Source: an uncultured Olsenella sp.
GTDB lineage: Bacteria; Actinomycetota; Coriobacteriia; Coriobacteriales; Atopobiaceae
Assembly (NCBI GenBank): GCA_900314495.1
Contig: OMVJ01000024.1
Coordinates: 1 to 32,834 of the forward strand
Direction of reading: 5' to 3'
DNA length: 32,834 nt
The notes under the pieces were generated by a model. That model saw nothing but the letters and a program-made list of their open reading frames with translations, was not told where the DNA came from and did no database searches. The position numbers and the translations under genes are program-made. This document shows positions 960 through 15,013 of the stretch, one piece after another. Every line of letters starts with the position of its first letter. The stretch's first letter is position 1.

Positions 960-3900
960 TTGTATAAGAACGTTCATGGATCATATAGCGACGAGTATTT
1001 AGATGCCCTTGCGGGTGTGGGCCGGGCCAAGGCGGATCGCCTGGCGAAGCGGAATGGCGCAGGCCGCGAGATTGTGGAGTCCATACTCACCGACGGGGCC
1101 AACGAGCGCCTGTTCGCGATGTGCGCGGAGCCCGAATGCGCTGCGGGCTACATTGCCGATTTTGTCGGCCGGTCATTGGGCCATGACGGGGTCTCCGTTG
1201 ATTGCCTGTGCTTGGCGGGCATGTCGAACTCCGAGGCGGTGGAGAGGGTCGTGAAGTTTGCGCATGGCGCCAACAGGGTCTCGAAGAAGTTGCTGCCGGG
1301 CAAGAAGGCCGTCTGCATAGTGGAGGACGTTCCGGCACTTGACGAATCCGAACTGCGGAAGATGACTCGAGCGCTGACTAGGATAGAGGAGTCGGGCCGT
1401 TACGTCATCCTGACAATGCTTCCCGAGTCGCAACAGATACTCGCAGATCTCCCCCCGACGCGAACGTTCCGCTCCAGGGACTTGCTTCTCGGGACGGAGG
1501 CCAAACGTGGCAGGAGAAGCTACAGGACTCGCGCGATACTCGAGGTCACGGGTGGCCTGCTGGGCCTGGCTCGCGCCGCGCTCGACGCAAACGCCGACGA
1601 ACCCGAGGATTTTTATCGTGACCCGGGGTTCATCCGCGCGCTCTCGACGACCGTCGTGTGGAGCCTCCGTGACGCCCTTTTGGATGAGGAGCGTGCGATG
1701 CGGTACAGTATGCTGATGCTGGGGCACGGAGACTTTGGCGAGGTCCGAGAGATTCTGGGAGGGCTGGACCAGGCACTTGTCGATGACCTATGCGCGGACG
1801 CGCCCCTGTACGGCGCGGACGCTGAGTCACAGACGTTCAAGTGCGTCGCAGTCGACACGGTAGACGGCCTCAAAGCCGTCATGAGCGCGCTGGATGACTT
1901 CTCCGACCAGTGGCGCGCCATTCCCGAGAAGGTCTGCAGGCGGCTTTGCGAGAGGCAGGAGTACGAGCGCGCGGCGGCACTGCTGGAGCTGATGGATGAC
2001 GACTCGACGATGGGGGTCTTCCAAGACTGGCCGGCAGAGCTGCTTGACGGAGGCGACTCCGAGCTGGCCCATGATGTGCTGACGATTTCGGACCCGCATA
2101 CGCCGCAGGGTCGGCTCTCCCGCGTGGTTCTGACGTCGGTGCTGGGGAATGCGGACGAGCAGGACGAGGCTCTGTCGAACGCGGCAGAGACGGGGTTGGG
2201 AGACCAGCTTGGCGGGACTGTGGGCGCCGTCGTGAGGGCGCGCATGGCCCTGAGGGGCATGCCACGGGAACCCGAAGGCGTGGCCGGGGGCGTGATCGAG
2301 GCACCAACTGGAGCTGTGAATCACATCGAGCGTCGATACGAGACCCATGCGAGGTTTCTGACCCTGCTCTCGATGGGCATGGTGCGGGAAGCCATGGAGC
2401 TCGTGTCCGGATCTCCGGATTCCGACGACTCTGGCCTGCACTCCGCCTGTCTCTTGAAGTTCGATGCGTTGCTCGCCGAAATGCTCTTGGGAGAAGGCGC
2501 GGGCGACGAGGGCGCGGACGGATTGCTGCGCGCGGAGGAGGTCTCGTTGGAGAGAGGCTTCGAATGCCTGTCCTTTGCGTTCGATTGCGTGCGTACCGTT
2601 CCGGGCATCCTGTTTGGGCCGAGCCGTCGCAGCAACCTCGTCGAGGAGGCGACCGCGATAGCCGGCGAGCGTGGTGACGAGCTGGCGCACATTGCCTGTC
2701 TGGCCTTGGCGTCCGTTGTCGACGCAAGGAACGGGAACGACCGCAGGGCAAGGTCGCGCCTTGCGGGCGCGCGCAATGTTGCGGAGCGGCTCGGCATGGA
2801 CTTTCTGGGCGAGTCGCTCTCCCTGTTGGTGCTTGCCATGCGTGCCGCCGGCGGCGAGCGCGTGACGTCCGGGGAGGTCATGCGTGCGTGCACGTGGGGA
2901 AGCTCGACCGAGCTGGTCGCAAGGGCCTTGGCCGTTGCGGTGGAGCCGAAGACGGTGACCAGGGACGATTTGATGGACGGGCTGGAGGACTCCGAGTGCC
3001 CGGAGGGGCTACTCTGGCTAGTAAGCGTGCTGACCACTGACTTTGGGGAGGTATCCTCGCGTCTCTGGCGGGTTCTGCCGCCGGCGTGGCAGGAGAGGCT
3101 CGGGCAGGCGAGAAGGGTCGCCCAGGGTTCCATCGGAGACGTCGTGGCGGATGCCGCAGACTTGGAGCCGGGGACGGACGACGGGACGGACGCTGACGGC
3201 GCGGTCGCCATTCGCATAACGCTCTTGGGTGGGTTTGGCCTGAGCGTCGGCGGCCGCTCGATTCCGAAGCCCAAGATCGAGCGGAGGAGGGCCAAACCGC
3301 TTCTGATGCTGCTTGCCTCGACGAGGGGGCACCAGCTGCCGCGCTTCACCATCATGGAGACGATTTGGCCCGAATACGATTACGGTGCCGGCAGGCAGCG
3401 GGTCTACGAGGCGACCAGCGTCTTGCGTGCGGAGTTCGACTCCTTGGGCTGCGCGCGTGACTCGAACCCCATCATCTCGAGCCGCCTCGAGAGGTCGATG
3501 GGACTCAACGGTACGGTGGTCTCGTGCGACGTGGACGAGTTCGAGGACGTTGCAAGGTCTGCCCTGCTGGCCCGGGGCGGTGCCAGGGAGATACTGATGC
3601 TAGCCTCGCGGGCCGAGGTCCTCTACCGTGGCGACCTCGCCGTGCCAGCCGTGGACGGAACCGGCCTCTTCGAGCAGCGCAGGCTGGAGCTGCGGTCACT
3701 CTTCGTCGATGTCATGGTGCTGGCGTCCGCCATGGCGCTGGAGGAGGGTCAGGACCTGCTGGCGGTGCACTATGCGCAAAGCGCTTGCAATGCGGATGAC
3801 CTTCGGGAGGATGCGGAGCTCTGCCTCGTCAAGGCTCTGGAGGCCGCTGGAAGGAGCGGCGATGTCCACAGAAGCTACGAGGAGTTCTCGGAGAGAATGC

Positions 3901-4085
3901 TCAGGGCGACCGGCTTCCCTCCCTCCAAGAGCCTGAGGGAGATAGTTGCCGAGGCCACGAAGGGCGGCCGACACGCCAAGAGGCGCAAGCTCGACCAGGG
4001 CGGAGGGAAACGAGACCAGAAGGACGATGACGCCTCCGATTTCGACGACAGCGAGGACGGATGGGGCGATATCGTGGACGAATAG
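960..4085 (+). CDS. Large BTAD/winged-helix transcriptional regulator with degenerate NTPase-like N-terminus
   Basis: The start is taken as TTG at 960 because AGGAGGT lies at 947-953 with a 6-base gap; an in-frame ATG at 879 has no such site and falls inside an inverted repeat. This gives 1041 residues. About residues 750-855 form an OmpR-type winged helix (ITLLGGFGLSVGG, KPLLMLLAS, QRVYEATSVLRAEF). About 860-1000 form a bacterial transcriptional activation domain of TPR-like helices (CDVDEFEDV, YRGDLAVP, the RSYEEFSERML block), as in SARP/AfsR-type regulators, but placed at the C-terminus. The front half has a Walker-B-like VCIVED (118-123) and a sensor-like YVILTMLPES, but no Walker A, so it resembles a STAND ATPase that has lost nucleotide binding. 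The middle is helical and repeat-like. The last 35 residues run from basic (KRRK) to strongly acidic. Codon use is richer in AGG, ATA and GGG than neighbouring genes. The target is unknown; autoregulation is possible given the upstream repeats. Confidence 0.8.
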   Translation: MYKNVHGSYSDEYLDALAGVGRAKADRLAKRNGAGREIVESILTDGANERLFAMCAEPECAAGYIADFVGRSLGHDGVSVDCLCLAGMSNSEAVERVVKFAHGANRVSKKLLPGKKAVCIVEDVPALDESELRKMTRALTRIEESGRYVILTMLPESQQILADLPPTRTFRSRDLLLGTEAKRGRRSYRTRAILEVTGGLLGLARAALDANADEPEDFYRDPGFIRALSTTVVWSLRDALLDEERAMRYSMLMLGHGDFGEVREILGGLDQALVDDLCADAPLYGADAESQTFKCVAVDTVDGLKAVMSALDDFSDQWRAIPEKVCRRLCERQEYERAAALLELMDDDSTMGVFQDWPAELLDGGDSELAHDVLTISDPHTPQGRLSRVVLTSVLGNADEQDEALSNAAETGLGDQLGGTVGAVVRARMALRGMPREPEGVAGGVIEAPTGAVNHIERRYETHARFLTLLSMGMVREAMELVSGSPDSDDSGLHSACLLKFDALLAEMLLGEGAGDEGADGLLRAEEVSLERGFECLSFAFDCVRTVPGILFGPSRRSNLVEEATAIAGERGDELAHIACLALASVVDARNGNDRRARSRLAGARNVAERLGMDFLGESLSLLVLAMRAAGGERVTSGEVMRACTWGSSTELVARALAVAVEPKTVTRDDLMDGLEDSECPEGLLWLVSVLTTDFGEVSSRLWRVLPPAWQERLGQARRVAQGSIGDVVADAADLEPGTDDGTDADGAVAIRITLLGGFGLSVGGRSIPKPKIERRRAKPLLMLLASTRGHQLPRFTIMETIWPEYDYGAGRQRVYEATSVLRAEFDSLGCARDSNPIISSRLERSMGLNGTVVSCDVDEFEDVARSALLARGGAREILMLASRAEVLYRGDLAVPAVDGTGLFEQRRLELRSLFVDVMVLASAMALEEGQDLLAVHYAQSACNADDLREDAELCLVKALEAAGRSGDVHRSYEEFSERMLRATGFPPSKSLREIVAEATKGGRHAKRRKLDQGGGKRDQKDDDASDFDDSEDGWGDIVDE

Positions 4086-4156
4086 CGTCTTGGCGGCTTC
4101 CGCGCGTCGAACTTTGGTGTATGCGTTCTGTGTCGTGGCTCGCGGTGGATTCCGAC

Positions 4157-4165
4157 TGGTAGAGT
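4157..4165 (+). promoter_or_regulatory. Candidate extended -10 promoter for secA-prfB
   Basis: TGGTAGAGT in the 142-base gap between the BTAD gene and secA has the TGn extension and TAGAGT (4 of 6). Transcription would begin near 4172, about 56 bases before the secA ATG. No clear -35 box is visible and no terminator is obvious after the BTAD gene. Confidence 0.3.
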
Positions 4166-4227
4166 TATGAGGCTAAGACTAAGTGGCGGGCATGGAGCCC
4201 GCCACGTGGATGCGTAAGAGGAACCGT

Positions 4228-7059
4228 ATGCCGAAGTTCTTTTCCAAGCTCCTCTCAATAGGCGCCGACAAGCCGCTCAAGGAGCTCAACCAAATAACGC
4301 AGCGGGTGAACGACCTGGGCCCGAAGTACGAGAAGATGGACGATGACGAGCTGAGGGGGCAGACGGCGGTCTTCAGGGAGCGCTATGGGAACGGCGAGAC
4401 CCTGGACGACCTCCTACCGGAGGCTTTTGCGACGGTGAGGGAGACTTCGGCGCGAACGCTTGGCATGCGCCACTTCGACGTCCAGGTCATCGGCGGCATC
4501 GCGCTGCACCGTGGCACCATCGCCGAGATGAAGACGGGCGAGGGCAAGACGCTCGTCTCCACCCTCGCCGGCTACCTCAACGCGATTCCAGGGGAGGGCG
4601 TGCACATCGTCACGGTCAACGACTACCTGGCAAAGCGCGACAGCGAGTGGATGGGCCAGATCTATCACTTCCTCGGAATGTCGGTCGGCCTTCTCCAGAA
4701 CGGCATGAAGCTCAACGCAAAGAAGCCGGCCTACCAGGCCGACGTGACCTACGGCACGAACTCGGAGTTCGGCTTCGACTATCTGCGGGACAACATGGTC
4801 ACGAGGCCGCAGATGCGCGTCCAGCGGGGCCACAACTACGCGATCGTGGACGAGGTCGACTCGATTCTCATCGACGAGGCCCGAACGCCCCTCATCATCT
4901 CCGGCGCTGGCACAAAGTCCGCCAGCACGTACCGCGACTTCGCGCGCGCGGTCCGTGGACTCGTGCAGGACGTCGATTTCGAGATGGACGAGGCAAAGCA
5001 CACCATTACCGCAACCGACCAGGGCCTGAAGAAGATCGAGCACGCCCTGGGCGTGGAGGACATCTACGCCGACATGTCGGGCCAGCTGGTCAACCACCTG
5101 CAGCAGGCGCTGAAGGCCGAGTACATGTTCCACCGCGACCAGCAGTACGTCGTCGTGGACGGCGAAGTGAAGATCGTCGACGAGTTCACGGGCCGCATCA
5201 TGGAGGGCAGGCGCTACTCCGAGGGCCTGCACCAGGCCATCGAGGCCAAGGAAGGCGTGTACGTTCGCGAGGAGAACCAGACGCTGGCAACCATCACTCT
5301 CCAGAACTACTTCCGCCTGTACGACAAGCTCTCCGGCATGACGGGCACCGCCATGACCGAGGATGCGGAGTTCCGCGAGATCTACAACCTCCCCGTCACG
5401 GTCATCCCCCCAAACAAGCCCGTTGCCCGCGTTGACCACGACGACCTTGTGTATCGCGACATCAAGAACAAGTTCTATGCGGTGGCGGACAACATCGAGG
5501 AGCGTCACGCCAAGGGCCAGCCAGTCCTGGTCGGCACCGTGTCCATCGAGAACTCCGAGAAGCTCTCGCGCCTGCTTGACAAGCGTGGCATCAAGCACAA
5601 CGTGCTGAACGCAAAGTACCACGAGCGCGAGGCGCAGATCGTGGCGCAGGCCGGCCGCGAGGGAGCGGTAACCATTGCGACCAACATGGCCGGCCGTGGT
5701 ACGGACATCCTTCTCGGCGGCAATCCGGAGCAGATGGCGCGTGATGCCCTGCGCGCCCAGGGCTTCTACGAGCCGCCGGCGAAGGGGGAGGAGCCCCTGG
5801 AGCCCACGCCCGCGCAGAAGCAGGCGGCGCTGGCGAAGGCAAAGGCGACGTGCGAGGTCGAGCGCGAGCACGTCCTGGCCGCAGGCGGCCTGTGCGTGAT
5901 CGGCACCGAGCGCCACGAGAGCCGTCGTATCGACAACCAGCTGCGCGGCCGCGCCGGCCGCCAGGGCGACCCCGGCGAGACGCAGTTCTACCTCTCCCTC
6001 GAGGACGACCTCATGAGGCTCTTCGGCGGCGACCGCATGGATCGCATCGCGCAGATGATGCAGAAGTACGACATGCCCGACGACATGCCCATTCAGGCGA
6101 AGATCGTGACCAAGGCGGTCGAGGGGGCTCAGCGCAAGGTCGAGGAAATCAACTTTGCCATGCGTAAGAACGTCCTGGACTACGACGACGTCATGAACAA
6201 GCAGCGCCAGGTCATCTACGAGGAGCGCAACAAGATCCTGGACGGAAAGGACCTGACCGCCCACGTCTCTGAGGTCACCTACGACACTGTCGGCCACAAG
6301 GTGGGGGAGTACTGCCCGGCGGACGCCAACCCGGAGGAATGGGACGTCAAGGGCCTGCTCAAGTGGCTGGGTGACCTGACTGGCCGGACGGAGGGGCTGC
6401 CCGAGGTCTCGCTGGACGATGACCCGGCGGAGCTTGCCGACAGGATGAGCGAGTTCGTCGAGTCCTGTTACAAGGAGAAGACCAAGCGTCTGGGCGACAG
6501 GGTGATGCACGAGCTCTCCACGCAGGTCATGCTGCGCGTCATCGACACGCGGTGGATGGCATACCTGCAGGAGATGGACTACCTGAAGACGGGCATCGGG
6601 CTGCGTGGCTTCGGCCAGCGAGACCCGCTGGTCGAGTACAAGTCCGAGGCCTACTCCGCGTTCACGGAGCTCGTGAACACCATGTACGAGGACTTCCTGA
6701 GGACGATCCTTCGCATCGAGATAGTGACGCGGTCGTCGGACCAGCGTCCGCGCCAGGCGGCGAACGAGATCTCCTCCGCAGATGTCGAGGAGCCCGAGGA
6801 GCTCAGGGGCGCAAGGTACTCCAACCCCTCGGAGGAGGTCGACGGTCCGCGTCATGCCAGGCCCGCTGTCTCCGTGAGCGCCCGTCGGAGCGCGGCGCAG
6901 GCGGCGGACTCCGTTGGCGCGGCGCCCGTGGCGGAGAAGCCGGTCACGTATCGCAAGGCCGACGACCCCGATCCCTATGTGGGGGTGGGCAGGAACGACC
7001 CATGCCCCTGCGGTAGCGGCAAGAAGTTCAAGAACTGCCACGGCAGGTATCGCGTCTGA
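4228..7059 (+). CDS. secA: Preprotein translocase ATPase SecA
   Basis: SecA is the ATP-driven motor that pushes unfolded preproteins through SecYEG at the inner face of the membrane. The 943-residue product shows Walker A MKTGEGKT (K107), the DEVD box at 208-211 followed by SILIDEARTPLI, the motif ATNMAGRGTDILLGG, and the helicase motif LRGRAGRQGDPG. The C-terminal zinc-binding SEC-C tail reads NDPCPCGSGKKFKNCHG. ATG 4228 is chosen because AAGAGGAA lies just upstream at 4216-4223 and the sequence then begins MPKFFSKLL as in other SecAs; upstream in-frame ATGs at 4183 and 4210 lack such a site. A Pro/Glu/Ala-rich insert (near FYEPPAKGEEPLEP) follows the MAGRGTD block. Its TGA stop overlaps the prfB start, implying translational coupling. 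Confidence 0.97.
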   Translation: MPKFFSKLLSIGADKPLKELNQITQRVNDLGPKYEKMDDDELRGQTAVFRERYGNGETLDDLLPEAFATVRETSARTLGMRHFDVQVIGGIALHRGTIAEMKTGEGKTLVSTLAGYLNAIPGEGVHIVTVNDYLAKRDSEWMGQIYHFLGMSVGLLQNGMKLNAKKPAYQADVTYGTNSEFGFDYLRDNMVTRPQMRVQRGHNYAIVDEVDSILIDEARTPLIISGAGTKSASTYRDFARAVRGLVQDVDFEMDEAKHTITATDQGLKKIEHALGVEDIYADMSGQLVNHLQQALKAEYMFHRDQQYVVVDGEVKIVDEFTGRIMEGRRYSEGLHQAIEAKEGVYVREENQTLATITLQNYFRLYDKLSGMTGTAMTEDAEFREIYNLPVTVIPPNKPVARVDHDDLVYRDIKNKFYAVADNIEERHAKGQPVLVGTVSIENSEKLSRLLDKRGIKHNVLNAKYHEREAQIVAQAGREGAVTIATNMAGRGTDILLGGNPEQMARDALRAQGFYEPPAKGEEPLEPTPAQKQAALAKAKATCEVEREHVLAAGGLCVIGTERHESRRIDNQLRGRAGRQGDPGETQFYLSLEDDLMRLFGGDRMDRIAQMMQKYDMPDDMPIQAKIVTKAVEGAQRKVEEINFAMRKNVLDYDDVMNKQRQVIYEERNKILDGKDLTAHVSEVTYDTVGHKVGEYCPADANPEEWDVKGLLKWLGDLTGRTEGLPEVSLDDDPAELADRMSEFVESCYKEKTKRLGDRVMHELSTQVMLRVIDTRWMAYLQEMDYLKTGIGLRGFGQRDPLVEYKSEAYSAFTELVNTMYEDFLRTILRIEIVTRSSDQRPRQAANEISSADVEEPEELRGARYSNPSEEVDGPRHARPAVSVSARRSAAQAADSVGAAPVAEKPVTYRKADDPDPYVGVGRNDPCPCGSGKKFKNCHGRYRV

Positions 7060-8174
7060 TGGCCGAGGTAACCGCAGACGCCCTGGACGCCTTGGCCAAG
7101 CGCCTGACCGAGGTGGAGGGCTACCTGCACGTCGAAGACAAGCGATCGGAGGCAGAGGTCCTGGAGCAGCAGAGCGCCGTCTCGGGGTTCTGGGATGACG
7201 CGACTGCCGCGAAGCGCGTCATGGAGCGGCTTGCTCGCGACAAGGAGGACATTGCCGGCATCGAGTCCGCTCGCGGGAAGCTGGATGACGCCCGCGCCGC
7301 CTTCGAGCTGGGGCAGGAGACCGGTGACGAGGAGCTTCTCTCTGAGGCGCAGGACCTCGCGGACGCACTGACCCACGACCTGACCGAGCTGGAGCTCTCC
7401 AGCTGGTTCGCGGACGACTTCGATCACGGTGACGCCATCGTGACGATCACGCCTGGCCAAGGGGGCCTCGAGGCGCAGGACTGGTGCGAGATGCTCCTCC
7501 ACATGTACCTGCGCTACTGCGAGCGTCGCGGGTGGGGGGTGACGGTCAACGACGCCCCCCAGGCGGAGATCATCGGCATCGACCGGGCCACGTTCACCGT
7601 CTCTGGCAAGAACGCGTACGGCATGCTCCGCGCCGAGCAGGGCGTGCACAGGCTGGTGCGCATCTCCCCCACCGACCTGAAGAAGCGCCGTCAGACGACC
7701 TTCGCCGGCGTCGAGGTGCTGCCCGTACTGCCCGAGGACGTGGAGGTGGAGATCAACCCCGACGATTTGAGGATCGACGTGTACCACGCGTCCGGGCACG
7801 GCGGGCAGGGCGTTAACACGACGGACTCCGCCGTGCGTATCACCCACATCCCGACGGGCACCGTCGTCACGTGCCAGAACGAGCGGAGCCAGCTGCAGAA
7901 CAAGGAGATCGCCATGCAGATCCTCCGCAGCCGGCTCTACGAGCTCGAGAAGGCAAAGCGCGAGGCTGCCCTCGACGAGCTGCGCGGGCCCAAGCACGAC
8001 ATCTCGTTCGGCAACCAGATTCGCAACTACGTGCTCTACCCCTTCCAGCTCGTGAAGGACACCAGGACCGGGGTCGAGACGGGCAACGTGAGCGCGGTTC
8101 TGGAGGACGGGGACCTTGACCAGTTCATAGTGGCGTATCACCGCTGGACCGTCGGCAAGGACGAAGAGGCCTAG
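7059..8174 (+). CDS. prfB: Peptide chain release factor 2
   Basis: RF2 reads UGA and UAA stop codons and triggers peptide release. The 371-residue product has the class I release factor fold, with the catalytic GGQ at 248-250 in SGHGGQGVNTT and the RF2-type AQDWCEML block. Its ATG overlaps the secA stop (TGATG). Two features are odd. First, the usual +1 programmed frameshift with an in-frame TGA is absent: the frame runs straight through EGYLHVE where E. coli has RGYL(D)YD, although a Shine-Dalgarno-like GGAGGG (7115-7120) still precedes it. Second, the stop-codon recognition tripeptide, normally SPF, is S203-P204-T205 (RISPTDLKKRRQTTF). RF2 identity is secure from the rest of the sequence. 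It precedes ftsE-ftsX, a common actinobacterial gene order. Confidence 0.96.
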   Translation: MAEVTADALDALAKRLTEVEGYLHVEDKRSEAEVLEQQSAVSGFWDDATAAKRVMERLARDKEDIAGIESARGKLDDARAAFELGQETGDEELLSEAQDLADALTHDLTELELSSWFADDFDHGDAIVTITPGQGGLEAQDWCEMLLHMYLRYCERRGWGVTVNDAPQAEIIGIDRATFTVSGKNAYGMLRAEQGVHRLVRISPTDLKKRRQTTFAGVEVLPVLPEDVEVEINPDDLRIDVYHASGHGGQGVNTTDSAVRITHIPTGTVVTCQNERSQLQNKEIAMQILRSRLYELEKAKREAALDELRGPKHDISFGNQIRNYVLYPFQLVKDTRTGVETGNVSAVLEDGDLDQFIVAYHRWTVGKDEEA

Positions 8175-8329: not shown

Positions 8330-9298
8330 GTGGCCAACCACTTTCGCAGCAACGAGCGGCAGGGGGCAGACGTGGCCGAGAACACCTCGGCAAGTCTGCA
8401 GGCATCGGAGGCGTCGGCTGACAGGCAGCTCGGCCAGCAGCTTCCCGATCCGGCACCCGTGCAGGCGGTGACCGCAAAGACGGACATCGTGAGCGCGGAC
8501 GACGGGACCGACGGTGCCTTGGACCAGCCTGGGTTCACGAGCGTGTTCGCCCCCCTGAGGGATGACGACGCGCCCATCGTTCCCCACACTGGCACCCCTA
8601 CGATTTCGCTCAAAAACGTAACAATGATCTACCCGGCCCAACCCAACAAGCCCGCGCTGGACGACGTGTCCCTGGAGATCTATCCGGGGGAGTTCGTCTT
8701 CATAGTCGGGCACTCCGGCTCGGGAAAGTCAACCTTCCTGCGCCTGCTCACGCGCGAGCTGCGCGCGACGAAGGGCCAGGTGCTGGTAGCCGGCCAGGAC
8801 CTGACGAAGATGCGCAACTGGAAGGTGCCCTACCTGCGTCGCCAGATCGGCACCGTGTACCAGGACTTCAAGCTCCTGCCCGACAAGACCGTCTACGGCA
8901 ACGTGGCCTTCGCCCTGGAGTGCATCGGCAAGCCCCGCTCCGTCATCAAGGCCCAGGTGCCCGAGGTGCTGAGGCTCGTCGGCCTGGCGGAGAAGATGGA
9001 CAACTACCCCGACCAGCTCTCTGGCGGCGAGCAGCAGCGCGTCTCGGTTGCCCGAGCCATGGTCAACCGGCCGCCGCTCCTGGTCTGCGACGAGCCGACG
9101 GGCAACCTCGACCCCGCAATCTCGCTGGGCATCATGAAGCTTCTAGACAGGATCAACCGCGCAGGCACGACGGTGGTCATGGCAACGCACGACCGCGAGA
9201 TGGTCGACTCCATGCGCAAGCGCGTCATCGCGCTGGAGGCCGGGCACGTCGTGCGCGACCAGGAGAGGGGAGGGTACGGTTTCTATGGCTCCCTCTAA
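8330..9298 (+). CDS. ftsE: Cell division ATP-binding protein FtsE with N-terminal extension
   Basis: FtsE is the ATPase of the FtsEX complex, which couples the divisome to peptidoglycan hydrolase activation. Walker A is GHSGSGKST (G127-K133), the signature is LSGGEQQRVSVARAM, and Walker B is LLVCDEPTGNLDP, typical of FtsE. The chosen start is GTG 8330, preceded by AAAAAAGGAG with suitable spacing, giving 322 residues. FtsE is normally about 225-230 residues. Here some 95 residues rich in Asp, Ala, Gln and Ser precede the TISLKNVTMIYP start of the ABC domain and look disordered. A shorter translation from the internal Met near residue 100 cannot be excluded but would cut into the first strand. 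The gene overlaps ftsX by 14 bases. Confidence 0.95.
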   Translation: MANHFRSNERQGADVAENTSASLQASEASADRQLGQQLPDPAPVQAVTAKTDIVSADDGTDGALDQPGFTSVFAPLRDDDAPIVPHTGTPTISLKNVTMIYPAQPNKPALDDVSLEIYPGEFVFIVGHSGSGKSTFLRLLTRELRATKGQVLVAGQDLTKMRNWKVPYLRRQIGTVYQDFKLLPDKTVYGNVAFALECIGKPRSVIKAQVPEVLRLVGLAEKMDNYPDQLSGGEQQRVSVARAMVNRPPLLVCDEPTGNLDPAISLGIMKLLDRINRAGTTVVMATHDREMVDSMRKRVIALEAGHVVRDQERGGYGFYGSL

Positions 9299-10211
9299 CT
9301 TTGGCTACTCCATGCGCGAGGCAGGCCGCCACTTCCGCAGGAACTGGTCGACCTCGCTGGGCGCCGTCGTCACCATCTTCCTCTCGCTCTTCGTCATCGG
9401 CGTCTTCGTGCTCGGTTCCGCGCTGGTCAACAACGTCGTCGGCAGCGTGGAGGACAGGGTCACCATCCAGGCCTTCCTGTCCGACGGGGCCGACCAGGCG
9501 GCGGTGGACGCCCTCCAGCAGAAGGTGCAGGGCTGGGACAACGTGGAGTCCGTCACCTACAAGAGCAAGGACGAGGCGCTGGAGGAATACCGCCAGACCA
9601 TGTCCAACCGCAACGCGGAGGACGCGGTGGAGGCCCTCGACGGGGAGAACCCCGTTCCCGCCTCGCTGGTCATCAAGCTCAACGACCCCCAGCAGGTGGA
9701 GGCCGTTGCCAACGAGCTCATAGGGGACGCGGACTTCGCCGCCGTCGCGGACGACCCCGACGACGTCTCTGCCTCCGTGCAGTACGGTCGCGAGACGGTC
9801 GAGCGCCTGTTCAGCGTCACGTACTACATCCGCATCGCGGCCATCATCCTGGTCGTGCTGCTGACCTTCGTCGCCTTCGTGTTCATCAACAACACCATTC
9901 GCCTGGCAATCTCCGCCCGCAGGCGTGAGATTGCCATCGAAAGGCTGGTAGGCGCGTCGAACAGCTTCATCCGCGGCCCCTTCGTTGCGGAGGGCGCCAT
10001 CGAGGCGCTGCTGGGGTCCCTGCTCGCCATCATCGCGCTGCATGTGGGCATGAACTACCTCGTGCCGCAGCTGTCCAACAGCCTGCAGTTCCTCTCGTTC
10101 AACCTGCCCATGGACGTCATGTTGAAGACGGACGCGGCGCTGCTGGTCATCGGCCTCGTAATCGGCCTCTTCGGGTCGGCCATCGCAATGAGGCGCTACC
10201 TCAAGGTCTAG
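9285..10211 (+). CDS. ftsX: Cell division membrane protein FtsX
   Basis: FtsX is the membrane subunit of FtsEX, and its extracellular loop regulates peptidoglycan hydrolases. The 308 residues show a short cytoplasmic N-terminus (SMREAGRHFRRN), a first membrane segment (TIFLSLFVIGVFVLGSALV), and a large external domain of about 125 residues containing VESVTYKSKDEALEEYR. Three more membrane segments follow, with the cytoplasmic RRREIAIERLVGAS block between the second and third, as in the family. The start codon lies within the end of ftsE, so the two are translationally coupled. A strong terminator follows at 10253. Confidence 0.95.
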   Translation: MAPSNFGYSMREAGRHFRRNWSTSLGAVVTIFLSLFVIGVFVLGSALVNNVVGSVEDRVTIQAFLSDGADQAAVDALQQKVQGWDNVESVTYKSKDEALEEYRQTMSNRNAEDAVEALDGENPVPASLVIKLNDPQQVEAVANELIGDADFAAVADDPDDVSASVQYGRETVERLFSVTYYIRIAAIILVVLLTFVAFVFINNTIRLAISARRREIAIERLVGASNSFIRGPFVAEGAIEALLGSLLAIIALHVGMNYLVPQLSNSLQFLSFNLPMDVMLKTDAALLVIGLVIGLFGSAIAMRRYLKV

Positions 10212-10337: not shown

Positions 10338-12380
10338 ATGTCTCGCAAGAGGGCACACCATGGCAGCAAGCGGCACGGTAACCACCCGGTCGCGCAGAAG
10401 CCCAGGACCTTCGTCACGGGAACGCTTCGCGTCACGCGCCCGGACTACGCGACCGTGGAGACGCCGGAAGGCGTCTTCAGGGTCGGCCCGCGCGGCGTCC
10501 GCGAGGGAATGAACGGTGACGAGGTGCAGGTGACGCTGGCGGTCCCTCACGGCCGTGGCGGCGAGAAGCTGGCGTACGTGCAGGGCGTTCTGCAGCGGGC
10601 CACCCACACGTTCCTGGGCACGTTCGGGGTGGCGGACCCCTTGGGGGTGGTCGTGCCCCTGGACGCGCGCATCAGGCGCGACTTCTTCGTCCTTCCAGAG
10701 GACGACTGCGCGCGGCGCCTGGGCGTCTGCGAGGGGGACGTCGTCGCCGCGCGCATCCTGCAGTACCCGACGCGCCAAAGCGCGGGCGTCGCCACCATAG
10801 ACAGGCGGGTCGGCTCGGCGGCAGACCTCGACCTGGACGTGGAGGCGGTCATCGCCTCGTACGACCTGCCCATGGACTTCCCGGAGCCCGTGCTGGAGGA
10901 GGCGCGCTCCGTCACCGTGGACGTGGGCGCCGCGCTGAGGGAGGACCCCGCCCGCGTGGACCTGCGGGGCGAGTGCTGCGTGACGGTTGACCCGGTGGAC
11001 GCGCGCGACTTCGACGACGCCGTGTCCGCGCGCCGCCTGGCTGGCGGCGGCTACGAGGTGGGCGTCCACATCGCCGACGTGACGCACTACCTGCCGTGGG
11101 ACGGGCCCATCGACGCCGAGGCACGCCGCCGCACGTGCTCCACCTACCTCGTCGACAGGGTCCTGCCCATGCTTCCAGAGGAGCTCTGCAACGAGGCCTG
11201 CTCGCTCAAGCCCGACGAGGACCGCCTGTGCATGAGCGTGAGGATGACGCTGGACGCACGCGGGCGCGTTCTGGCGGCGGAGGCTGCCAAGACCGCGATC
11301 CGTTCCAGAGCCAGGCTCGACTACGGCACCGTGGACCGGCTCTTGCGGGGCGAGGTGGCGGATGCAGACCTGCCCGCGGCGGAGGGGACCCATCGCGTGG
11401 TGGCCGAGACCCTGCGCATCCTGGACGAGGTCGCCGCCAAGCGAGCGCGCGTCAGGCAGGAGCGGGGCGCCATAGACTTCGAGACCAGCGAGGCCAAGGT
11501 GGTCTTGGACGGGGACGGCCGCCCCACGGGGGTCAGCGTGCGGAGGAAGACGCGCGCCATGTCGCTCATCGAGGAGGCCATGCTCATGGCCAATGAGTGC
11601 GTCGCCAGGATGCTGGCCGACGCGGACGCGCCGGCAGCGTACCGCGTGCACGAGAGGCCGGCGCCGGAGGACCTGCGGGCCTGCGTTCCCGCCCTGGGCG
11701 AACTTGGCCTGGTGCGCGGCGCGGAGGTGGACCTGCTCGTCGCGGGGGAGCCGGACATGATCCAGGCCGTGCTTGAGCGCGCGAGGGGCACGAGTGCGGA
11801 GTACCTGGCCAACGCCCTCTTGCTGCGGGCTCAGAAGCGCGCCGTGTACCTGCCCCAGAACCTGGGCCACTACGCCCTGGGCGCAAAGGCTTACTGCCAC
11901 TTCACGAGTCCCATCCGGCGCTACCCGGACGACATCGTGCACCGGGCCCTCAAGGCCTACCTTGCGCACGACGCCGCCTCGTCGGAGCAGCGCAAGGTTG
12001 CCAGGCAGCTCCCCCAGCTCTGCCGGACGTGCTCGGACCGCGAGAGGATTTCCGACGCGGCGGCGCGTGCCTCGCAGAAGGTGAAGATGGCCGAGCTCTA
12101 CGCGGAGCGCGTGGGAGAGAGCTTCTCGGGCATCGTGGTCGGGGTCGAGAGGTTCGGCCTCTTCGTGATGCTGGACGACACTTGTGCGGAGGGGCTTCTC
12201 CCCACGAAGCGGCTGGGGACGGAGTGGTTCTCCTACGACGAGGACCGCATGAGGCTTACGGGCGAGTCCACCGGCAGGGAGTGGTCGCTTGGCAAGAGGA
12301 TCGCTGTGACGGTCGTGGGGACGAACGTGGCGCGCGGGCAGATTGACTTCGCTTTGGCAGGGGGCACCGCATCAAAGTGA
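10338..12380 (+). CDS. rnr: Ribonuclease R
   Basis: RNase R is a processive 3'-5' exoribonuclease of the RNB family that degrades structured RNA, including nonstop mRNA delivered by tmRNA-SmpB. The 680 residues contain an N-terminal basic stretch (MSRKRAHHGSKRHG) and OB/cold-shock domains. The RNB catalytic block with clustered aspartates (DPVDARDFDDA) is followed by VGVHIADVTHYL, CSLKPDEDRL, the ARVRQERGAIDF block and HFTSPIRRYPD. A C-terminal S1 domain (FSGIVVGVERFGLFV) completes it. ATG 10338 is chosen over upstream in-frame codons because AAGGGGGAG sits 5 bases before it; the upstream frame runs through the ftsX terminator. It is shorter than the E. coli enzyme (813). It heads a probable operon with the TPR gene and smpB. 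Confidence 0.95.
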   Translation: MSRKRAHHGSKRHGNHPVAQKPRTFVTGTLRVTRPDYATVETPEGVFRVGPRGVREGMNGDEVQVTLAVPHGRGGEKLAYVQGVLQRATHTFLGTFGVADPLGVVVPLDARIRRDFFVLPEDDCARRLGVCEGDVVAARILQYPTRQSAGVATIDRRVGSAADLDLDVEAVIASYDLPMDFPEPVLEEARSVTVDVGAALREDPARVDLRGECCVTVDPVDARDFDDAVSARRLAGGGYEVGVHIADVTHYLPWDGPIDAEARRRTCSTYLVDRVLPMLPEELCNEACSLKPDEDRLCMSVRMTLDARGRVLAAEAAKTAIRSRARLDYGTVDRLLRGEVADADLPAAEGTHRVVAETLRILDEVAAKRARVRQERGAIDFETSEAKVVLDGDGRPTGVSVRRKTRAMSLIEEAMLMANECVARMLADADAPAAYRVHERPAPEDLRACVPALGELGLVRGAEVDLLVAGEPDMIQAVLERARGTSAEYLANALLLRAQKRAVYLPQNLGHYALGAKAYCHFTSPIRRYPDDIVHRALKAYLAHDAASSEQRKVARQLPQLCRTCSDRERISDAAARASQKVKMAELYAERVGESFSGIVVGVERFGLFVMLDDTCAEGLLPTKRLGTEWFSYDEDRMRLTGESTGREWSLGKRIAVTVVGTNVARGQIDFALAGGTASK

Positions 12381-12471: not shown

Positions 12472-13332
12472 GTGGAAGAGACCACTCTGACGGAAGAGCT
12501 TCAGCGTGCCGAGGGGCTTCTCATCCAGAACGAGGACGAAGGCGCCAGAGAGCTGCTGCGGCACCTGGCGGACGACGCGGAAGGCTACGTGGACGCCAAC
12601 TGCCCCACCACGGAGGAGGTGCAGTGGTTCAGCTTCCCCACCATCTTCGAGAGGCTGGCGTACCGCAGGGTCGAGGACGACCCTCGCGAGCTGCGTGATG
12701 TGGGCGAACCGCTGGACAGGCTCTATGCGGACCTTGCCCTGGCGTGCGCCCGCCTGGGGGACTTCGACGAGGCGCGCGAGGCCCTGAAGGCGGCAGTGCG
12801 CTGGAATCCCATGGGCTGCGAGTACCGGCTTGACCTGGCGGAGCTCTACCGCGCCGCGGGCGACATGGACGAGTACCTGGCCCTCACCTACAGCGTCTTC
12901 GAGCGCGCGAGCGAGGCAAGCCACCTGTCGCGGGCCTTCCTGGTCTTCTCCAACTACTTCCAAAGGGTGGGGAAGACGGAGGCCGCTGCGGGAGCGCTAC
13001 GGGTGGCGCGCAGGCTGGACGGGCGGGACCCGGCCGTCAGGGCGGCGCTGGACCAGGCCACCGGCACGGATGCCGACCCGGATTCCATCTCTGACCAACA
13101 GGCCACCGACGCGCTTGCCGCCGAGGGCCTGCCCGACGGTGCGAACGCGGAGATTGCCATCTGCCTGCTCATGTGCGCCACGGATTCCGCCGCCGCGGGT
13201 GACCGGCAGACGGCCACAACGCTGACGCTGCGTGCCCGCGACCTCGTGGGCGACGCCGCGGCAATGACGCTCCTCAAGCTGATTCGCGAGACGGACGACG
13301 AGCTTGCCGGAGGGGAGCCCAGCGATGCCTAA
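12472..13332 (+). CDS. TPR-repeat protein of unknown function between rnr and smpB
   Basis: The 286-residue product starts at GTG 12472, preceded by GAGAGGGAG (12457-12465). One textbook TPR starts near residue 84 (LYADLALACARLGDFDEA, ending WNP), and further helix pairs of TPR type follow (YRLDLAELYRAAGDMDEYL; SRAFLVFSNYFQRVGKTEAA). The first 80 residues contain a Trp/Phe-rich segment (VQWFSFPTIFERLAYRR), and the C-terminal third is Ala/Asp-rich with helices (AEIAICLLMCATDSAAAGD). No catalytic motif, signal peptide or membrane segment is seen, so it is probably a cytosolic protein-binding scaffold. Its last 8 bases overlap smpB. Position between rnr and smpB suggests, but does not prove, a link to ribosome rescue or RNA decay. 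Confidence 0.85.
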   Translation: MEETTLTEELQRAEGLLIQNEDEGARELLRHLADDAEGYVDANCPTTEEVQWFSFPTIFERLAYRRVEDDPRELRDVGEPLDRLYADLALACARLGDFDEAREALKAAVRWNPMGCEYRLDLAELYRAAGDMDEYLALTYSVFERASEASHLSRAFLVFSNYFQRVGKTEAAAGALRVARRLDGRDPAVRAALDQATGTDADPDSISDQQATDALAAEGLPDGANAEIAICLLMCATDSAAAGDRQTATTLTLRARDLVGDAAAMTLLKLIRETDDELAGGEPSDA

Positions 13333-13795
13333 CAGGGAGAAGAAGAGCATCGCCAGGAACCGGTCCGCCAACCATGCTTACTTCATCGACGAGACCTGGG
13401 AGGCCGGCCTTGTCCTCACGGGCACCGAGGTCAGGAGCCTGCGCGAGCGCGGCTGCCAGATCACAGACTCCTATTGCAGCATCCGCGACGGCGAGTGCTG
13501 GCTCATGGGCGTGCACATGCACCCCTACTCGCACGGCAACGTCTGGAACGTGGACCCGGACCGCAAGCGCAAGCTGCTTCTCCACAAGCGGCAGATCCAC
13601 TACCTTGACCAGAAGCTGCGCACCAAGGGCGTGGCGCTTGTGCCGCTGGAGCTGTTCTTCGACGAACACAACCGGGTAAAGCTCATAATTGGACTAGGGA
13701 GGGGCAAGAAGCTGTACGACAAGCGGCAGGACATGGCCGACCGCCAGGTCGACCGCGACATTGCCCGCGCGCTGAAGGAGCGTGCGCGCAGCTAG
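13325..13795 (+). CDS. smpB: SsrA-binding protein SmpB
   Basis: SmpB binds the tRNA-like part of tmRNA and takes it to stalled ribosomes for trans-translation. The 156 residues carry the family landmarks NREKKSIARNRSANHAYFI, AGLVLTGTEVRSLR, the conserved MHPYSHGN block, RKRKLLLHKRQI and GRGKKLYDKRQ. The C-terminal tail (RQVDRDIARALKERARS) is the part that acts in the mRNA channel. ATG 13325 is preferred to an in-frame TTG at 13304; GGAGGGGA lies about 9 bases upstream within the end of the TPR gene, which it overlaps by 8 bases. Its RNA partner ssrA is encoded only 850 bases downstream on the other strand. Confidence 0.96.
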   Translation: MPNREKKSIARNRSANHAYFIDETWEAGLVLTGTEVRSLRERGCQITDSYCSIRDGECWLMGVHMHPYSHGNVWNVDPDRKRKLLLHKRQIHYLDQKLRTKGVALVPLELFFDEHNRVKLIIGLGRGKKLYDKRQDMADRQVDRDIARALKERARS

Positions 13796-14645: not shown

Positions 14646-15013
14646 TGGTGGAGGCGCGGAGAATCGAACTCCGGTCCAAAATAGCTCCCTGACAGGTTTC
14701 TCCAAGCTCAGTCGCCAATTGAGGTTCGGACGCGTCGCGCCTGGCGACCCGCGTTCGGCGTCCTAGCCGGTTCGATCTTTGCGACGGGCATACCGACTAC
14801 GTCCCGTCGTGCATCCCCCTAGGATGACGCCGCACCACCGGCGGAGGAAACCGGAGGATTGACGTGCTGGTTAGATTAACTAAGCAGCAAGAGCCAGAGG
14901 CTCATAAGAATCAGTGTTGTCAATTAAATTTGACGGTACCCCTGTTTTACGTGGCGAGGAGACCACGGCTTGCTTCCCATCTCAGACCTACCCTGTCGAA
15001 ACCAGTCGCCCCC
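14646..15013 (-). ncRNA. ssrA: Transfer-messenger RNA (tmRNA)
   Basis: tmRNA frees ribosomes stalled on broken mRNA and tags the product for proteolysis. On the minus strand the 5' end GGGGGCG (15013-15007) pairs with CGCCTCC near the 3' end to form a 7-bp acceptor stem containing the characteristic G-U pair. It is followed by ACTGGTTTCGACAGGG, the conserved 5' tRNA-like region. The 3' end has a T-arm with GTTCGATTC and an encoded CCA ending at 14646. The length of 368 is normal. The tag frame is near 14900 and ends in LALAA. The partner gene smpB is nearby, and no split or permuted form is seen. Confidence 0.95.
14880..14921 (-). other. ssrA: tmRNA proteolysis tag reading frame
   Basis: Within tmRNA, GAC at 14921-14919 opens a frame encoding DNTDSYEPLALAA with a TAG stop at 14882-14880; the alanine carried by tmRNA itself precedes it, giving ADNTDSYEPLALAA. 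The ALAA ending is the usual ClpXP/ClpAP degron. The resume codon is GAC (Asp) rather than the commoner GCA. A second in-frame TAA follows two codons after the TAG. Confidence 0.85.

Follow-up and report, generated by a model that had tools for sequence, protein, structure and literature searches.

Clusters of rnr and smpB have long been described in bacteria, with prfB, the gene of RF-2, as a frequent neighbor of smpB (PMC4131195, PMC3534368, PMC10644348). In S. pneumoniae, rnr overlaps smpB (PMC3534368), while the Bacillales cluster holds another, unrelated gene (PMC10644348). A known rnr-smpB cluster that also includes a further conserved gene, its role uncertain, resembles the locus described here; its extra gene, however, encodes an esterase and lies upstream of rnr, whereas ours encodes a TPR protein and lies between rnr and smpB. 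Since clustering of rnr, smpB and prfB is already known, the grouping of rescue genes in our locus is ordinary, and the TPR gene alone is unstudied. We found no paper in which a TPR protein is treated alongside smpB and rnr.

The rnr-smpB locus and its TPR gene

The window, that is, the whole stretch of 32,834 nucleotides of an uncultured Olsenella sp. that was analyzed, carries secA, prfB, ftsE, ftsX, rnr, the TPR gene, smpB, a flavin reductase gene, a rubredoxin-like gene, tmRNA and a patatin gene. The gene prfB, for release factor 2, occupies 7059-8174 on the plus strand (TIGR00020), and ftsX, an upstream neighbor kept across relatives, occupies 9285-10211 on the same strand. RNase R is encoded by rnr at 10338-12380 (plus strand), identified by its RNB domain and by a match to TIGR02063 of 593 bits, slightly under the cut-off of 597.85. 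The TPR gene (12472-13332, plus strand) is an intact ORF with a GTG start preceded by a GA-rich stretch, and encodes 286 amino acids with a pI of 4.3. It is followed by smpB, the gene of the SsrA-binding protein (13325-13795, plus strand; NF003843, TIGR00086), whose start overlaps the TPR stop by 8 bp (13325-13332); in relatives, a short overlap or tiny gap is conserved. The tmRNA gene ssrA, found by both ARAGORN and Rfam, lies at 14646-15013 on the minus strand and specifies the tag DNTDSYEPLALAA. The first-pass annotation had reported a 286-residue TPR protein between rnr and smpB with an 8-base overlap, genes for RNase R, SmpB and tmRNA within 4.7 kb, and prfB nearby. The coordinates, the Pfam TPR matches, the 4.7 kb from rnr to tmRNA and the upstream prfB all bear this out, though tmRNA is on the minus strand. 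Because of that orientation, tmRNA falls outside the transcript of smpB, and the possible operon comprises rnr, the TPR gene and smpB without it. A promoter scan of the locus gave nothing for or against co-transcription.

Two further features of the window are recorded here. The minus orientation of tmRNA relative to smpB is shared with a genome of the same genus (G244, locus L062), while in other loci with the TPR gene tmRNA is on the plus strand where found; the orientation in this genus is a local inversion. An ORF of 1068 amino acids at 879-4085 matches no NCBIfam model, and its sole domain is a BTAD close to the end.

Distribution of the TPR gene and its junction with smpB

We searched 246 genomes of the class and counted full-length homologues of the TPR protein. 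These were present in 109 genomes: all 61 of the window's family, which is Atopobiaceae by its named relatives, 47 of 48 in a second family, Coriobacteriaceae by its Collinsella record, and one genome of a third family. Conservation on this scale means that the gene is not a chance ORF. In all 109 genomes the match coordinates place the TPR gene immediately 5' of smpB, on the same contig and strand, and 68 distinct loci among these cases were inspected directly. Loss of the gene was considered for the 48th genome of the second family, a public one (G094, locus L049), and rejected: low-complexity filler there joins a truncated rnr to the last 48 TPR codons, and the exception looks like an assembly artefact. 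The filler, at about 6100-6400 of that locus, is purine-rich. The gene is absent from the smpB locus of a sister family (f2, probably Eggerthellaceae) and of other orders, and a search of 296 genomes sampled across Actinomycetota found the TPR family confined to the window's order. One Collinsella record with a TPR homologue was found in a plasmid search; the RefSeq name of the Collinsella homologue is 'hypothetical protein'. Similar TPR proteins may occur in Clostridia, which is a lead only.

The junction with smpB is tight. The TPR stop lies within 30 bp of the smpB start in 73 of 74 loci and overlaps it in 51, start codons having been picked by script for spacing, such that single values may be a few codons off. 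The RefSeq-annotated record of C. aerofaciens provides independent evidence, with an overlap of 11 bp. The ftsE-ftsX junction is comparably tight (overlapping in 42/45), while rnr-TPR (within 30 bp in 7/63) and smpB-flavin reductase (5/57) are looser, and ftsX-rnr is also unlike TPR-smpB. As for retention, smpB stays adjacent to the TPR gene in 40 of 40 cases and rnr in 33, and the flavin reductase gene follows smpB in 26 of 40. Homologues of the TPR protein have about 275 to 383 amino acids, the difference lying in the C-terminal tail, and yet without exception the ORF runs up to smpB, a hint that the junction is under selection. Gene overlaps couple translation, and subunits of complexes are overrepresented among overlapping pairs (PMC10666635); interaction is predicted only imperfectly by a conserved neighborhood (PMC6941341). 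We infer that the TPR gene and smpB are probably co-transcribed and translationally coupled.

Outgroup loci offer a comparison for the same position. In 15 of 19 such loci there is an M42-type peptidase gene, mostly directly upstream of smpB, where 'M42' is a reading of the peptidase sequence and not the result of a family scan. In eight loci of family f2 this gene ends 1 to 20 bp before the smpB start; M42-type loci directly before smpB at 1-20 bp are L080, L083, L089, L090, L092 and L096-L098. The peptidase shares slot and tight spacing with the TPR gene, but is an unrelated protein, of which the window's genome lacks an ortholog. Thus, smpB tends to sit tight against any preceding gene, and tightness is not specific to the TPR gene. 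What sets the TPR gene apart is the overlap itself, since none of the M42-type or rnr genes preceding smpB in the outgroup loci has a negative spacing. The unrelated peptidase gene shows that the slot before smpB is not reserved for a single function. With it, and with another unrelated gene in the Bacillales cluster, position by itself says little for a rescue role.

Predicted fold and wider family of the TPR protein

Three TPR motifs in the protein exceed their Pfam cut-offs (in brackets): TPR_8 with 26.5 bits (25.7), TPR_14 with 25.8 (23.5) and TPR_19 with 25.5 (25). No NCBIfam equivalog fits the protein, the best reaching 19.5 bits where the cut-off is 312.2. AlphaFold2, given 55 homologues, predicted an all-helical solenoid of 14 helices in antiparallel pairs (pLDDT 95.5, pTM 0.90), into which two short strands, residues 50-53 and 73-76, are inserted. 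The insert lies within the hallmark block of the family in the alignment, residues 44-80 (CPTTEEVQWFSFPTIFERLAYRRVEDDPRELRDVGEP; 12601-12711, plus strand), and residues 44-90 are among the best-conserved stretches (QWFSFPTxFERLAYRRVExDPREL). A fold search of the PDB returned only generic TPR proteins, both designed and natural, with Z up to 14.9 and an rmsd of 2.6 over 154 aligned residues; residues 200-286 were barely covered. NlpI, PilF and MamA have the TPR solenoid in common with the window's protein, but the likeness is one of generic fold, at 12-19% identity, and their genomic context is not shared. NlpI and PilF are lipoproteins; inspection by eye revealed no evident signal peptide or membrane segment in our protein. 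All homologues are acidic, with a pI of 4.2-4.8 and a median net charge of -29, while the median pI of SmpB is 10.0. This pairing of charges is compatible with binding and no proof of it, an acidic pI not being specific. From the predicted fold, the TPR protein is a candidate soluble protein-binding scaffold.

Three relatives in the order are not linked to smpB: L040 of G012, L041 of G188, and L042, a second copy in G042, a genome that also has the smpB-linked copy. They align over their full length, in 266 columns that take in the conserved block preceding the TPRs, with an hhalign probability of 99.5, at 18-23% identity and with a best single-sequence E of 4e-14. Their architecture is that of the smpB-linked group, but they stand away from smpB and rnr and lack most of the hallmark residues. 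The smpB-linked group is therefore a single branch within a wider TPR family. Neighbors of the unlinked relatives include a Mrp-like ATPase gene in L040 and rlmH in L042. In the latter locus (3604-5105) the TPR paralogue is immediately upstream of rlmH, whose product is a methyltransferase acting on the ribosome; this may be chance.

RNase R, SmpB and other possible clients

The first-pass annotation had put forward the TPR protein as a candidate adaptor for ribosome rescue or for recruiting RNase R. By the second reading, it would bring RNase R to rescued ribosomes in place of the K-rich tail on which E. coli RNase R relies for recruitment (PMC3949413). The position of its gene between rnr and smpB fits the idea, as does the RNase R of the window, which is without both the K-rich C-terminal tail and the N-terminal HTH region. 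However, the tail is missing equally from genomes with the TPR gene and from outgroups without it, and we rejected the TPR protein as its substitute. Moreover, five genomes (G092, G098, G190, G240 and G170) keep TPR-smpB while an rnr match and the RNB domain (Pfam PF00773) are absent genome-wide, by a search that was positive in 11 of 14 control genomes. These five are 95-99% complete, and one is a single contig with 99% completeness. In their loci (L044-L048) ftsX is followed directly by the TPR gene, and rnr was apparently lost by clean excision between the two. The rnr-TPR junction also tolerates insertions, with 3-8 kb separating the genes in several Collinsella-like genomes and in two genomes of the window's family. 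Finally, the distance correlation of TPR with RNase R (0.79) is below that of FtsX with RNase R (0.83). Linkage of homologues to rnr and smpB in relatives, which had been proposed as a test of the adaptor, therefore stands for smpB and breaks down for rnr. For a factor of trans-translation or nonstop decay, linkage to smpB would be required but would not suffice. Because the TPR gene is kept without any RNB protein, 3-8 kb insertions occur and the tail is absent in outgroups too, we reject the RNase R adaptor as a conserved role; that it describes the protein at all is very improbable. In one case of separation, C. aerofaciens L112 (4444-10382), rnr is parted from the TPR gene by a recombinase, VanZ, murQ, PTS EIIC and mupG, apparently an inserted set of genes for the use of muropeptides.

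A link to SmpB itself has more in its favor than one to RNase R, though we hold it to be rather unlikely. The acidic TPR protein would bind basic SmpB, either co-translationally, acting as a chaperone that holds it, or at the stalled ribosome, modulating trans-translation in this clade. Linkage in every genome with the gene, the overlap, the opposed isoelectric points and the enrichment of complex subunits among overlapping pairs (PMC10666635) argue for such a partner. Against it, distance correlations over 32 loci, a weak test, gave 0.55 for TPR-SmpB, which is not above the controls (FtsX-SmpB 0.56, FtsE-SmpB 0.55; RNase R-SmpB 0.57), and we rejected this measure as a sign of co-evolution. 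A further weak test found just one SmpB column that separates genomes with the TPR gene from those without. The acidic pI is unspecific, the unrelated peptidase gene of sister lineages is also 1-20 bp from smpB, and relatives of the same architecture exist unlinked. These last two points instead fit a gene that merely travels in the operon, with a housekeeping function outside translation and a spacing set by a slot that favors compact packing, as would the other genes seen in rnr-smpB clusters elsewhere (PMC10644348). We give this explanation an even chance, but it has difficulty with the overlaps, which are found in 51 TPR loci and in no outgroup peptidase or rnr gene before smpB, and with the retention of smpB beside the TPR gene in every case, above that of rnr or of the flavin reductase gene.

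What we consider the best explanation is somewhat more probable than not: the product is an acidic TPR scaffold, conserved in this clade, whose synthesis keeps pace with that of SmpB. In an ancestor shared by the window's family, the Collinsella family and a third one, the TPR gene would have settled immediately before smpB. It would then have stayed there with a short overlap, tying its synthesis to that of SmpB, and the groove of the protein, by analogy with TPR proteins, may bind a protein or peptide client. That client could be SmpB or the rescued ribosome, for example if the acidic protein holds basic SmpB just after its synthesis, which is a possibility on the unlikely side. There is about an even chance that the client has nothing to do with ribosome rescue, the operon setting expression only. 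RNase R as the client is highly improbable, and what probability remains belongs to something not considered. A partner in the operon that serves some other client is thus at least as likely as an SmpB link. Reading the locus as co-synthesis only may nevertheless undersell the pair, since universal overlapping linkage over family-level divergence often marks heteromeric partners (PMC10666635, PMC6941341). A narrower proposal, a clade-specific rescue accessory of Atopobiaceae and Coriobacteriaceae that captures nascent SmpB or holds it on the stalled ribosome independently of RNase R, is doubtful, more so than an SmpB link in general.

In conclusion, a real, conserved and unstudied TPR gene lies directly before smpB in a gut-type actinobacterial group, and a role in ribosome rescue is only a candidate. 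The gene persists where RNase R is gone, so its product is not mainly an RNase R adaptor. If the protein does not bind SmpB, the locus would be a caution that adjacency to rnr and smpB is no sign of a rescue function, unrelated genes occupying that place by lineage. If it does, it would be a lineage-specific SmpB partner marked by a universal overlapping gene pair, and accessory control of trans-translation would become testable in Collinsella and Olsenella.
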